In this document: piece after piece, positions 18,495 through 30,166 of the stretch
Layout of the letters: every line of letters begins with the position of its first letter
Numbering within the stretch: the stretch's first letter is position 1
Assembly: GCA_945881865.1 (NCBI GenBank)
Contig: CAMCVK010000001.1
Coordinates: 310,001 to 374,000, forward strand
DNA length: 64,000 nucleotides
Source: Fimbriimonas ginsengisoli Gsoil 348
Lineage (GTDB): Bacteria; Armatimonadota; Fimbriimonadia; Fimbriimonadales; Fimbriimonadaceae
Direction: 5' to 3'
Made by a program: the position numbers and the translations under genes
The notes under the pieces: model-generated
Told to the model about the DNA's origin: nothing
What the model saw: the letters and a program-made list of their open reading frames with translations, nothing else
The model's database searches: none

Positions 18495-19058
18495 ATGAAA
18501 AAACACCTGCTTCTCATCTCGGTGGCGTCCGCAATCGGCATTTCCGCCACCGGCCACTCCGCGCTCATCCACTTGAACCAGACTGAATTCTACGTCAACA
18601 GTTCCAACAACAATGTTCTCTATCTTGGCGGCAGTATGGTGGTGCAGCCCGGGGAACTTTTTGCCGCTCCAGTGGCGATAGAGTATGCGATAGGCGAATA
18701 TGGACGACCCTATTTTGTTCCGGACGATGAAGAACCAGTTACCGGCTATCTGATTCATTTAGGCCTCAAGAAACTTTCAGAGGGAAGCCATACCTTCGAC
18801 GTCGCAAAGGAGACAACGTATCTTGGATTTCAATGGAGCAGGCCTTTGACGACGGTCACGACGAAAACATTTCGCATATTTCCGGGAGTTCAGCGAGATG
18901 TGAGCGAAAAGGTAGATCCACGTAGTTATAGTTTTAACTCCCCCGAAGGGCAGTATGTCGATATCACCGTGACGTTCGATCCCGTGCCGGAGCCGGCGAG
19001 CATGGCCGTCCTCGGCCTTGGCGCTCTCGCCCTGCTGCGACGCAAGAAGAAAGCCTGA
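18495..19058 (+). CDS. PEP-CTERM surface protein
   Basis: Exported protein of 187 residues. A signal peptide (MKKHLLLISVASAIGISA) and a C-terminal sorting signal are both clear: PEPASMAVLGLGALALL followed by a basic RRKKKA tail. PEP-CTERM proteins are processed by an exosortase, which is not in this window. The middle is beta-rich without a recognised domain and could be an envelope or biofilm matrix protein. Base composition is lower in GC than the neighbours, with ATA and TTA codons, which may reflect relaxed selection or transfer. It is followed by repeat cluster A. Confidence 0.85.
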   Translation: MKKHLLLISVASAIGISATGHSALIHLNQTEFYVNSSNNNVLYLGGSMVVQPGELFAAPVAIEYAIGEYGRPYFVPDDEEPVTGYLIHLGLKKLSEGSHTFDVAKETTYLGFQWSRPLTTVTTKTFRIFPGVQRDVSEKVDPRSYSFNSPEGQYVDITVTFDPVPEPASMAVLGLGALALLRRKKKA

Positions 19059-19070
19059 AGCACATCTGAA

Positions 19071-19357
19071 CCCCTCTCCAATCTGTTGGAGAGGGGCAGG
19101 GGTGAGGCGAAGAGAGCCGCATGGTAGGCAATTCGTGAAATTCCTTGTTCCATCAATTGCCATCTAATTCTTTCAGCCTCATCCCGGCCCTTCTCCCCAG
19201 GGAGAAGGGTTCAGACTCGCTTCGCGTTGGAACTCGCCGAGCCCGAAGGGCTGTAGCCGACGCCTCTCTGGCGTCGCCCCCGCGAATGCCCAAGGAAGAA
19301 GGTCGGAATCACTTCCGGCTCCCTCTCCAATCTGTTGGAGAGGGGCAGGGGTGAGGC
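19071..19357. repeat. Composite palindromic repeat cluster A
   Basis: Three copies of a palindromic arm. Arm 1 is 19071-19108: CCCTCTCC and GGAGAGGG form a hairpin, followed by GGGGTGAGGC. The inverted arm 2 is 19176-19209 (GCCTCATCCC, then CTTCTCC pairing with GGAGAAG). Arm 3 is 19321-19357, same orientation as arm 1. The 67-base spacer between arms 1 and 2 holds its own partial palindrome. Between arms 2 and 3 lies a GACGCC/GGCGTC hairpin. The whole resembles a BIME/REP-type element. From 19358 to 19525 I see nothing else. Confidence 0.85.
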
Positions 19358-19525
19358 AAAAAAACGGAGAAACTCAAGCTTTCCGAGCTTGATCCAAGAC
19401 AACAGACCAGCCTAATCGGGTCTGCAGAATTGCTTTGCCCAGTTCGCTAGGCGTAGCACGCAATGGGCTGTTACGGTATGCCCGGCGCAAAATCGCACCC
19501 GGAATAGGTCACGATAAATGCGTAA

Positions 19526-20836
19526 ATGAAAACCAACTGGCAAGCCCGCGCACTGTCTCCGAACGACCTCATTCTGAAGATCAAGGACAACGGCACGGTT
19601 TTCATCCACGGTGCCGCCGCCGTTCCCATCGACCTCGTCGAATCTCTCTGCAGCCAAACGCACCTAACTAACATCACAACCTACCACGTCCACCTTGGAT
19701 GTGAGACCAAGCTCGGTACCGCGGCCTGTCCGTATATCCAGCCCATCTCCTTTTTTACTGGCGCCGACTTACGCCCCAGAATCGCCACGGGTAACTGCGA
19801 ATACGTTCCTATTTTTCTTTCCGATATCCCCAACCTTTTCTATTCGCAACAGGTCCACCTCAACGTCGCCCTCATCCAAGTTTCCCCGCCCGATGAACAC
19901 GGAATTTGCTCGCTAGGCACCAGCGTAGACTGCGCTCGCGCCGCCGTAGACACGGCCGATCTCATCCTTGCCGAGGTCAATCAGCAAATGCCGCGTACTT
20001 TTGGAAACAGCTCCATTCCGCTCTCCAAAATTGACTTCTTCACCTGCTCAGATCGCCCGATCATCGAGCACGCCCCCAAGAAGCCAACTGCCGTAGAAAC
20101 ACGAATCGGCGAAATCATCGCCGACTTAGTCACCGATCGGTCCACCCTCCAAATGGGCATCGGCGCCATCCCGGACGCGGCCCTAGCCCAGCTCAACAAC
20201 AAGCAGGACCTTGGCGTTCATACCGAAATGTTCTCGGACCAGCTCGTCACACTGTTTGAGAGCGGCGCGATCACAAACAAGTACAAATCCGTTCACCCTG
20301 GCCGAATCGCGACCAGCTTCGTGAACGGAACGAAGCGGGTGTACGACTTCGTCCACAACAATCCTCTCGTTGAGTTCCACTCATGCGACCGGACAAACGA
20401 CACAAGCCTAATCCGTAAGAATAACTCGGTAGTCGCGATTAATTCTGCCCTACAAGTTGACCTATCTGGCCAAGTCTGCGCCGATTCCTTAGGGCATTCC
20501 ATCTACTCCGGAATCGGCGGACAAATGGACTTCATCCGGGCCGCCGCGCTATCCGTTAACGGAAAAGCCATTATCGCGCTTCCATCCACGGCTGCCAAGG
20601 GCACGGTATCCCGTATAGTTAATTCCCTATCCGAAGGTGCCGGCGTGGTCACCACCCGCGGCCATGTCCACTGGCTCGTCACCGAATACGGCGCGGTTAA
20701 CCTTCACGGTAAGAGCCTACGCCAACGCGCTGAGGCTTTAATTTCGATCGCCCACCCCGACTTCCGGGCGGAACTCACCGCCCAAGTAAACGGCCTTCGG
20801 CACTTCACCATATCCGCCCCTCTGCCCGCAGACTAG
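19526..20836 (+). CDS. Acetyl-CoA hydrolase / 4-hydroxybutyrate CoA-transferase family protein
   Basis: A 436-residue enzyme of the Cat1/Cat2/AbfT CoA-transferase family, which moves CoA between acyl-CoA and a free acid such as acetate, 4-hydroxybutyrate or propionate. The family's catalytic glutamate is in GVHTEMFSD. QMGIGAIPDAALAQL precedes it, and GIGGQMDFIRAA and STAAKGTVSRIV near the C-terminus are family blocks. There is no signal peptide. The start ATG has no strong ribosome-binding site. The gene stands alone between repeat clusters A and B, and its codon use (more ATA, CTA, TTT) differs from neighbouring housekeeping genes, so acquisition is possible. Confidence 0.85.
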   Translation: MKTNWQARALSPNDLILKIKDNGTVFIHGAAAVPIDLVESLCSQTHLTNITTYHVHLGCETKLGTAACPYIQPISFFTGADLRPRIATGNCEYVPIFLSDIPNLFYSQQVHLNVALIQVSPPDEHGICSLGTSVDCARAAVDTADLILAEVNQQMPRTFGNSSIPLSKIDFFTCSDRPIIEHAPKKPTAVETRIGEIIADLVTDRSTLQMGIGAIPDAALAQLNNKQDLGVHTEMFSDQLVTLFESGAITNKYKSVHPGRIATSFVNGTKRVYDFVHNNPLVEFHSCDRTNDTSLIRKNNSVVAINSALQVDLSGQVCADSLGHSIYSGIGGQMDFIRAAALSVNGKAIIALPSTAAKGTVSRIVNSLSEGAGVVTTRGHVHWLVTEYGAVNLHGKSLRQRAEALISIAHPDFRAELTAQVNGLRHFTISAPLPAD

Positions 20837-20872
20837 GTGCCCGGCATTAACGAAAGCTTGAAAAGCCTCTGG

Positions 20873-21246
20873 CTCCCGCTCCGAGCGGAGAGGGCCGGGG
20901 TGAGGCGAAGAGAGCAGCATGGTAGGTAATTCGAACAATTCCCTGCCCCATCAATTACCATCTAATTCTTTCAGCCTCATCCCTGCCCTTCTCCCCAGGG
21001 AGAAGGGTTCAAACAAGCTTCGCGTCGAATCACCCGTAGCCCGAAGGTCTGTCGCCCACGTCTCTCTGGCGTCGCCCGATATGCCAGGCAGAAGGTCGGA
21101 ATCGCTTCCGGCTCCCTCTCCGAGCGGAGAGGGCCGGGGTGAGGCGAAGAGAGCCGCATGATAGGTAATTCGCGAACTTCTTTGTCCCATCAATTACCAT
21201 CTAATTCTTTCAGCCTCATCCCTGCCCTTCTCCCCAGGGAGAAGGG
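20873..21246. repeat. Composite palindromic repeat cluster B
   Basis: Four arms of the family seen in cluster A: 20873-20906 and 21112-21145 in one orientation (core GAGCGGAGAGGG, then CCGGGGTGAGGC), 20974-21007 and 21213-21246 in the other (GCCTCATCCCTGCCC, then a CTTCTCC/GGAGAAG hairpin). Both spacers inside the arm pairs carry AATTACCATCTAATTC, also near-identical in cluster A. The first three arms align with all of cluster A, so the CoA-transferase is flanked by roughly 280-base imperfect direct repeats. Confidence 0.85.
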
Positions 21247-21285
21247 TTCAGACGTCGCACAATGAGCTGCCCGAGGGGCCCCCAG

Positions 21286-23223
21286 TCAGAACGAAATCGT
21301 TCCCGAAACCGGACGGAAGCCGCTGATCGTTTGGATCGTCGACGTCGGTGCCACCTGGAACAGCGGGCGGTAGGCTCCGCCGTTCACTGTGAGGTAGCTC
21401 TCCACCGCGCCGTAGCCGCCAAACCCGAACGCAATGCCGAACTGCCGGCTGGCCAAGTTCACGCTCAGACTTCCGCCGTTGAACCGAACGTTTTGAACAC
21501 CCGGGAAGTTGACCGTCGTTGCCGCGTCCAGCACCGGAACGTTCAACGCGAGCGGAGCCGAAAGTGTATCGGCGGCAAGGCTCAGGTTCCCGAGCGACCA
21601 GGTTCCGTTCGCGGTGCGATCCACGATGCCGAAGCCACGAGAGTCTAGCAAGCGAACCGAGCCGTAGCGCGCCTTTCTCAACAGGAACGTGGCCTGGGTT
21701 CCCGTCAGGTCGAGGCTGCCCCAAATCTTGGCGATACCGCCGGCATTGAAGTCGCTCGAAAACCCGTGGGTATCGGTGAGCAGCCCGTACTGAAGCGGGA
21801 ACGCAACCGTATTCGCCGGTACCACCGGCACAACAGTACCGCTGAAGGGCGAGAACGCCGGTCGGGTCACGCCGTCAATGGTGCCCGGAAGGAACGCCCG
21901 AATGAAGAATCCGAGGCGAACCGTTGCCTTTCCTTTAAGGAACAGGTTTCGAACCGGGTAGTTCGGGTCGTTCGAGTTCACTGCGAGCGTTTGGTTCTCC
22001 GCTTCGAATCGATTCGCCCGGTAGCGAACAACGACCTCCGTGCTGGCACCAGGCGCGAGGTTCAGGGTCGTCGCCCCGAGCGTGCCGCCCACCGAATAGA
22101 TCGAGTAGGCAGCGGATGATGCCGGTCCGACCGAGCCAGTCAGCGGCCCGGTGCCGTTGTTCGAAATCGTGAACGTCTGGTCCGACGCGGAATCCAGCGG
22201 TCGCGTGCCGAAGTCAATCTCCGTGCGGCTGAATCCGAGCTGCGACTGGACGACGGCAAACGTCTTCGTCGTTTCGGCGGTCATGCCCTCGTCGTCGGTC
22301 ACCCGCAGCCGCACCGTCCAGGTGCCGGGCTTATTCACCACCAGCGCGGCGGCGGTTCCGTCTTGGGTGGTCACCACGCTCGTCGGATCGGTGATGATCC
22401 ACCGGGTGGCGTAGATTCCCTGCGTCGGCACGCCGTTGTCCGAGTCGCTGGATAGGCTGAACAAGCTGACGCTGGAACCGTTCGGAAAGCTATCCACGCG
22501 ATTGCCGCCAACCACCGGCCCGTCAATGCTCGCGGTCGGAGCAACGCCGGTTCGGATGTTCGCTTTCAGTTGTCCGGCCAACGTAACGTTCGCGTTCAGA
22601 CTGCTGGCCCCCGAGAATGCTTGAAACGCATCAATGGAGTAGGTCCGGGTGTTTGCATGCGTGTAGGTCGTGCCGGGAAAAGCGGGCAGGCTCAGAGTCG
22701 TTGCGCTGGTGGTCCCGTTCTGAACCGTTGTGCCAACGCCTAAGTTGAAACTTACGCCAGACGCCGTGGAAGCAGGCGATGAATTGTTCTGGATGGAGTA
22801 AGAAATCTGGTTGAAAGGTGCGTTCGTGGCACTGGAGGCTCCGACGAGGGTCCCAGAGTCGGTAAACGCGAACGGCGTTCCGGCCGCGCCGCGCACAAAA
22901 GTCTCGAGCTTCACGTTGGCTAGCCCGTACAGACTGCTCGCCGAAACGGACGCCAGCGCACTCACCACGGATCGGTAGTCAAGCTCCGAGCCCCAGAGAT
23001 CAGCACGGCTTGTCACGGAATATGGGTTCCCGGCTTGCGTCGGGCCGCTGGCAGAAAAGCCGGTTTGAACGTAAGGCGCGGGAGCCAGCACGCTGCTGAG
23101 TCCACCATTCAGCGACTTCTCGTGCGAGATCGTAATGCGATAGATCACCGGCGGAGCCTGCGCCGTCGAGAGCGCGGACAGGGTGCCAACGAGCAAAGAA
23201 GCGAAAAGCAGACGGTGACGCAT
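21286..23223 (-). CDS. Secreted multidomain protein with Ig/PKD-like and choice-of-anchor D domains
   Basis: Exported protein of 645 residues with a signal peptide (RHRLLFASLLVGTLSALSTAQA). The first 230 residues are Ser/Thr/Ala-rich beta structure. A PKD/Ig-like domain follows (near 235-340; TWTVRLRVTDDEGMTAET). Then comes a choice-of-anchor D-type domain (IDFGTRPLDSASDQTFTISN; NSNDPNYPV) and a C-terminal beta-rich region without a recognised domain. I see no sorting signal. Two ATGs are adjacent (23226 and 23223); GGAA lies about seven bases before the second. Likely a surface or extracellular structural protein. It stands alone, with repeat cluster B after its stop. Confidence 0.75.
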   Translation of the reverse strand: MRHRLLFASLLVGTLSALSTAQAPPVIYRITISHEKSLNGGLSSVLAPAPYVQTGFSASGPTQAGNPYSVTSRADLWGSELDYRSVVSALASVSASSLYGLANVKLETFVRGAAGTPFAFTDSGTLVGASSATNAPFNQISYSIQNNSSPASTASGVSFNLGVGTTVQNGTTSATTLSLPAFPGTTYTHANTRTYSIDAFQAFSGASSLNANVTLAGQLKANIRTGVAPTASIDGPVVGGNRVDSFPNGSSVSLFSLSSDSDNGVPTQGIYATRWIITDPTSVVTTQDGTAAALVVNKPGTWTVRLRVTDDEGMTAETTKTFAVVQSQLGFSRTEIDFGTRPLDSASDQTFTISNNGTGPLTGSVGPASSAAYSIYSVGGTLGATTLNLAPGASTEVVVRYRANRFEAENQTLAVNSNDPNYPVRNLFLKGKATVRLGFFIRAFLPGTIDGVTRPAFSPFSGTVVPVVPANTVAFPLQYGLLTDTHGFSSDFNAGGIAKIWGSLDLTGTQATFLLRKARYGSVRLLDSRGFGIVDRTANGTWSLGNLSLAADTLSAPLALNVPVLDAATTVNFPGVQNVRFNGGSLSVNLASRQFGIAFGFGGYGAVESYLTVNGGAYRPLFQVAPTSTIQTISGFRPVSGTISF

Positions 23224-30039: not shown

Positions 30040-30152
30040 CCCTCCCTTTCGGCACGAGAGGGAGGGCTAGGGTGAGAGAGTCGGATTTATGTAATCCGAA
30101 GACGGCGGCTCTCCACCCCTAAACCCCTCCTCTCGGAGAAGAAAGGAGGAGA
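30040..30152. repeat. Composite palindromic element C
   Basis: Same architecture as clusters A and B with a different sequence. Left arm 30040-30076: CCCTCCC and GGGAGGG, then CTAGGGTGAG. In the centre TCGGATT (30080-30086) pairs with AATCCGA (30092-30098). The inverted right arm, about 30110-30152, has CTCTCCACCCC, then a CCTCCTCTC/GGAGGAG hairpin. It lies between the DUF1552 and rhodanese stops and may also work as a bidirectional terminator. Confidence 0.7.
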
Positions 30153-30166
30153 CTTTCCGAAGATTT

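Follow-up and report, generated by a model that had tools for sequence, protein, structure and literature searches.

We consider it rather probable that two clusters of palindromic repeats bracketing a CoA-transferase gene, here called A and B, are arrays of a non-autonomous palindromic element, that a form of this element carries a DUF559 gene and that the repeats owe their spread to DUF559 nucleases. The basis for this reading was computed: a repeat family with its clusters, long repeats that bracket DUF559 genes, a match between enzyme and arm, near-identical copies and one empty site.

The window, the whole stretch of 64,000 nt analysed here, corresponds to C1:310001-374000 of a 3.23 Mb genome in 26 contigs. 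Direct reading, a repeat finder and a covariance model agree on the seven arms of alternating orientation that had been predicted in it. Cluster A holds P1 (19062..19110, plus strand, C1:329062-329110, E 1.0e-9, also seen by direct reading), N1 (19174..19218, minus, E 3.0e-11) and P2 (19311..19359, plus, E 1.0e-7), the last with the same loop as P1. Cluster B holds P3 (20865..20908, plus, E 2.7e-5), N3 (20972..21016, minus, E 1.5e-11), P4 (21104..21147, plus, E 4.5e-6) and N4 (21211..21255, minus, E 7.1e-12), with a period of 239 nt between the P3–N3 and P4–N4 repeats. Coordinates are the limits of the covariance model, slightly wider than those of the original prediction; E values, all ≤2.7e-5, refer to the whole 3.2 Mb genome and to a model built partly from these seven arms. 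Each arm is a hairpin, as had been proposed: pairing holds in 94.2% of cells, and none of the 500 shuffles reaches the observed covariation score. The claimed homology of the two clusters also held, with 186 nt in common at 87%, arm–spacer–arm units that are 90–92% identical and an inter-arm segment that is 79% identical (89/112 columns). There is no Rfam match in window positions 18900-21500, and we rejected a known RNA family. Another facing palindrome pair, of a different subtype (CCCTCCC..GGGAGGG, with a GGGGTGGAG tail), was seen by pattern scan at 30041-30153 of the window.

P1 consists of a hairpin and a GGGGTGAGGC tail, with the stop codon of a PEP-CTERM gene 12 nt upstream, and P3 starts about 29 nt past the stop codon of the CoA-transferase gene. 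P arms often directly follow stop codons, as at these PEP-CTERM and CoA-transferase genes, and they may additionally play a part in transcript ends. The 3′ end of the PEP-CTERM gene (18984..19058, plus strand) has 91% DNA identity with two other PEP-CTERM genes, which have the same arm after the stop codon as that at 19062..19110. Among the three (window 18984-19115; L004, C2:235156-238266), the last 75 nt are common at 91%, the next 57 nt, which include the P arm, are 88–89% alike and the remainder only about 49%. The PEP-CTERM sorting signal and the repeat thus look as if they were copied or converted as one block.

The whole-genome search proposed in the original prediction revealed a dispersed family, with clusters at genes of all kinds. 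Arms were gathered by BLAST before attention turned to DUF559; of 46 arm strings, 44 were kept, of which 33 entered the model alignment, the other 11, near-duplicates or odd copies, being omitted by hand. The covariance model gives at least 63 full-length arms in 20 clusters, a count that may be a lower bound because 150 of the 1,359 candidates were scored, and 57 of the 63 scored arms sit in groups of two or more. At the loci that were read, the arms are extragenic. Their consensus is TCTGAACCC(T/C)TCTCC-loop-GGAGA(A/G)GGG-NN-GG(G/A)TGAGGC, and two subtypes occur at the locus: P (GGGGTGAGG, often with a loop of 8 nt) and N (GGGATGAGG). Arrays of N-type arms (L265, C19:10001-30000; L266, C23; L019, C12) adjoin frames with YDGHGNMVAT stretches, which look like Rhs-repeat remnants.

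Facing pairs are regularly spaced: 20 of 25 start 100–112 nt apart, and 22 lie within 100–135 nt. The basic unit is a pair of inverted 45-nt arms at a fixed distance of about 60 nt. Several groups are tandem arrays of such a pair and its flanking DNA, with periods of 188–249 nt, so that clusters A and B are one case among several. This regular spacing and the tandem amplification in several clusters bear out the proposed BIME-like unit, and A and B would be tandem arrays of a non-autonomous element with this REPIN/BIME architecture. Selection of the whole unit as one long hairpin was considered and rejected, the inner segments folding no better than shuffles (z −1.6 to +1.3). The idea that spacers are unrelated between clusters proved partly wrong: several can be aligned (z up to 9.9), which makes the fixed spacing at least partly a matter of common descent.

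The gene between the clusters (19526..20836, plus strand; acetyl-CoA hydrolase/transferase family) was originally suspected of having been moved or gained with them, or by recombination between them, a reading we now regard as very improbable. In its favour, the codon use of the gene is deviant, as had been noted (0.245 bits per codon vs 0.06–0.13 for the five longest other genes); as also noted, it has no operon partner, there being no close same-strand neighbour. In G013 and G014, the two nearest relatives that carry the gene, it lies elsewhere, and the clusters stand at both breaks of synteny. Against a gain, the gene is vertically common to G013 and G014. The CoA-transferases of the three genomes form one clade (SH-aLRT 99 in a 99-row tree), with 66% identity to those of G013 and G014 compared with 65–67% for two neighbouring vertical genes of the left flank; divergence like that of vertical neighbours, within one clade, means that the gene was not gained recently. 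Other members of the genus have a different CoA-transferase subfamily (about 45–52%).

The comparison of the locus in relatives thus showed the gene to be present, with the pieces of the locus apart. In both G013 and G014 the CoA-transferase gene adjoins ppa-miaB, and each of the two flanks of the present locus has a separate location. The G013 coordinates are C3:426k for the left flank, C1:291k for the CoA-transferase gene beside ppa-miaB and C4:267k for the ilvA-tag portion of the right flank. In our genome miaB is at C15:59384 with ppa 4.5 kb away and inverted, and no CoA-transferase gene is there. The locus was assembled by rearrangement. With its three pieces apart, no empty site can be read that would speak for repeats moving the gene, and, because synteny with G013 is in any case interrupted every few genes, the clusters cannot be blamed for the rearrangement. 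The loops of P2 and P3 also differ, and the two edges of the gene have only arms in common. Mobilization or gain of the gene with the clusters thus fails on the missing empty site and on the age of the gene in the lineage; the CoA-transferase gene would be a bystander.

A different reading takes the arms for ordinary RAYT-driven REPINs, mobilized in trans by one of the four Y1_Tnp genes in the genome. RAYT–REPIN systems are well described (PMC3116915, excerpts), and within the inter-arm segment of cluster A lies a 19-nt exact copy (19240..19258, minus strand) of a palindrome of a second family, GGCTACAGCCCTTCGGGCT, which flanks the Y1-transposase gene at C1:291528. A further paper is also said to describe such systems. 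The suggested search for a RAYT partner did find Y1 genes, but none of the four is flanked by arms of the family of clusters A and B (family 1), in flanks of 1.5 kb on each side for three genes and shorter ones for the fourth. Each lies among palindromes of its own (L107, C1:290028-293267; L105; L106; L108), which belong to at least three families (the GTAGCC, CCCGGGTC and CACTGGTG types). The GTAG tag is absent from family-1 arms, whose conserved tail is GTGAGG or GATGAGG. Given these other palindromes and the missing tag, we find mobilization by a Y1 transposase improbable.

A comparison of arm spacings pointed to another partner: in two facing pairs, spaced at 409 and 410 nt, the arms enclose a DUF559-like open frame. 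A profile search gave five DUF559 genes in the genome and one weak match inside a 1,844-codon frame. Three of the five lie exactly between facing family-1 arms: the gene at C23:8779-9084, a pseudogene with stop codons at C12:876-1118 and the gene at C1:298658-298918, some 11 kb before the start of the window, whose P-type arms are almost identical to P1, the loop being the main difference. Only three of the 25 facing pairs are wider than 135 nt (409–482 nt apart), and exactly these hold DUF559; the probability of such a placement by chance is about 5e-9. The other two genes, on C11 (L298, 1268-2050) and at C3:91219 (L299, 2083-2700), are related to each other and are bracketed by palindromes of a third family (CCCCCTCCCCCACGGTTCCCCC..). 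Strings like those of the third family also occur in inter-arm segments at C1:160.8k, C4:193k and on C13. The C23 DUF559 frame (L266, 8707-9087) ends inside an arm, which therefore encodes its last residues (SPHPIPSPLGEGL).

Bracketing extends to relatives. Among this genome and 60 relatives, 42 of 61 genomes have a PF04480 match. Ninety-four of 118 DUF559 rows were taken (two G040 rows and the 22 weakest were omitted, and the C12 pseudogene was kept), and 89 of these loci had enough flank to score. Long repeats, inverted or direct at a stricter joint threshold (99th percentile of mismatched pairs), bracket 65 of the 89 loci, in 32 of 34 genomes; considered separately, with the 99th percentile of mismatched pairs as the minimum, 57 loci have inverted and 34 direct brackets. 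None of 39 CoA-transferase and coaD control loci was bracketed (maximum 13.0), and 7 of 1,500 random windows were; as a further control, 3 of 27 PEP-CTERM genes of this genome lie above the threshold. The family-1 model, which was trained on the arms of this genome, matches 14 of 30 DUF559 loci, several weakly and one of them from this genome, vs 0 of 39 controls.

The similarity of enzymes follows that of their arms, both within genomes (rho 0.44; 2 of 2,000 permutations) and between them (rho 0.39; 0 of 500 permutations), among the 54 of 65 bracketed loci that have the domain motif in frame. Among named plasmid records from four phyla, 9 of 16 DUF559 loci are bracketed, with 16 of 37 DUF559-matching records examined and the threshold taken over from the test on relatives. 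The bracketed loci are from Neisseria, Pseudanabaena, Deinococcus, Sinorhizobium (two), Qipengyuania, Sphingobium, Sphingomonas and Novosphingobium; those below the threshold are from Synechocystis, Azospirillum (two), Shinella, Escherichia, Methylobacterium and Photobacterium. On a Sphingomonas parapaucimobilis plasmid (L353, 1465-1875), a palindrome-bracketed DUF559 gene separates sufB from sufC. The Sinorhizobium repeat resembles, we presume, RIME elements.

Several copies point to movement of the gene with its brackets. Two in G049 (L361 and L363) share 96.7% identity across 549 nt, in a match that begins and stops at the palindromes; beyond it the flanks are unrelated. Two in G051 (L337 and L375) are 94% identical over 736 nt. 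The C11 element occupies 783 nt between conserved flanks where G013 and G014 have 48 nt, which is an empty site. In these three cases terminal inverted repeats bound a moving unit, as in insertion sequences and MITEs; no target-site duplication is evident at L361/L363 or C11. Related Sinorhizobium records have the same element beside the same left flank, so no empty site can be read there.

DUF559 genes of this genome score 95.6 and 80.3 bits against PF04480 (curated cut-off 20.6). Across 14 DUF559 domains, E15, D43, E54, D56 and H60 are invariant and D65 is present in at least 90%. The spacing of E15, D43, D56, H60 and D65 agrees within one residue with that of E73, D102, D115, H119 and D124 of Caulobacter VsrA, which have been proposed as active-site residues (PMC12907096, excerpts). 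Going by this alignment, the putative active-site residues are intact. VsrA is a DUF559 protein, the presence of which causes a DNA damage response without a methyltransferase (same excerpts). Profile matches in the PDB are to 3hrl (4.4e-27) and, weakly, to 3r3p, a ‘Mobile intron protein’ (0.043). E. coli YcjD, which we take to be PRK09767, is named a DUF559 protein by NCBIfam. YcjD was earlier placed in the PD-(D/E)XK superfamily (PMC1189080, excerpts). A role of DUF559 as a defence system was considered and rejected, with only a weak match to DpdF in PADLOC (E 0.0022).

We hypothesize that the Vsr-like PD-(D/E)XK nuclease encoded by a DUF559 gene, which lies between facing arms in the gene-carrying form of the element, recognizes its own palindrome and cuts or nicks there. 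Repair from an arm-bearing copy would spread the DUF559 gene, amounting to homing into REPs, and the same repair may spread short units of arms alone as well as local tandem copies, for example A and B. Local unequal exchange at broken arms could likewise give rise to tandem arrays such as these. A more general version is that DUF559 proteins are selfish REP-homing enzymes, each breaking the palindrome of its own family and copied in by repair, and that they generate and maintain RAYT-less REP/BIME families in Armatimonadota, Pseudomonadota, Cyanobacteriota and Deinococcota; this we put forward tentatively, as a conjecture that may well prove too broad.

Bracketing could also come from a gene that merely inserts into existing REPs. 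The arms would then be landing sites that spread in some other way and serve the host, in transcript ends or DNA structure, and the DUF559 element would be comparable to insertion sequences that insert into REPs, for which there is reportedly published precedent. The frequent position of P arms directly after stop codons suits such a role. The unbracketed loci, 24 of the 89 in relatives, do so too and, with 7 of 16 on plasmids, count against spread driven by DUF559. So do the arms of G055 and G060, two genomes in which the model matched 10 and 9 arms and the DUF559 search matched nothing; these may be orphan repeat families, and completeness is 98% for G055 and only 81% for G060. Nine or more arms occur in five genomes, three of which (G000, G016 and G059) have DUF559 genes. 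The arms on the two sides of a gene, however, match each other far beyond mismatched pairs, and the within-genome correlation of enzyme and arm is unexpected for a passive site; it would be expected only if every enzyme had specificity for its own arm, and that assumption already contains most of the model of DUF559-driven spread. No other partner gene of family-1 arms was found here. We therefore think passive landing sites unlikely, although less so than mobilization by a Y1 transposase, and keep DUF559-driven spread as our preferred explanation.

In a search of titles and the beginnings of abstracts, with most subscription journals outside its reach, we found no literature linking DUF559 to palindromic repeats. 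How REP-like palindromes spread without a RAYT is stated as an open question in excerpts of PMC3733652. DUF559 is a concrete candidate enzyme for such RAYT-less repeats, with a predicted target in the arms beside its own gene, and the results suggest a new type of driver behind a very common group of bacterial repeats. If this is true, the large DUF559 family of genes of unknown function gains a role, and the local tandem arrays of such repeats could be explained.

The closest known arrangement is that of REPIN/BIME–RAYT systems, in which extragenic palindromes form facing pairs of fixed spacing and tandem arrays that include flanks, with several families per genome, each with one palindrome-flanked enzyme gene (PMC3116915 and PMC3733652, excerpts). 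The elements described here share the short palindromes, the facing pairs of fixed spacing, the tandem arrays, the several families and a partner gene between the same palindromes. They differ in that the partner is a PD-(D/E)XK (Vsr-like) nuclease rather than a Y1 HUH transposase, in the lack of a GTAG tag on the arms, which GTAG REPs have, and in the near-identical gene-carrying element found at several places, unlike RAYTs, which are single copy (PMC3116915, excerpts). CGTC-tagged REPs are similarly palindromic, paired and without a RAYT partner, and have no dedicated transposase according to their authors (PMC3733652, excerpts); they carry CGTC at one end of a stem of 8–9 bp with a loop of 4–5 nt. 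Here CGTC was seen beside some arms, in several spacers.

At the level of the enzyme, the likeness is to YcjD and Caulobacter VsrA, with the same PF04480 domain and the same putative active-site residues. The excerpts of the Vsr and DUF559 papers present VsrA as a repair nuclease (PMC12907096) or the family as predicted nucleases (PMC1189080), with no link to repeats there, and the E. coli DUF559 copy that was examined has no brackets, unlike the elements here. Homing endonucleases of the Vsr fold, represented by 3r3p, are distantly similar (E 0.043), and the DUF559 enzymes would, like them, spread by cutting and repair. Unlike the 3r3p type, they are associated with neither an intron nor an intein: their genes lie between palindromes, which are themselves the suggested target.
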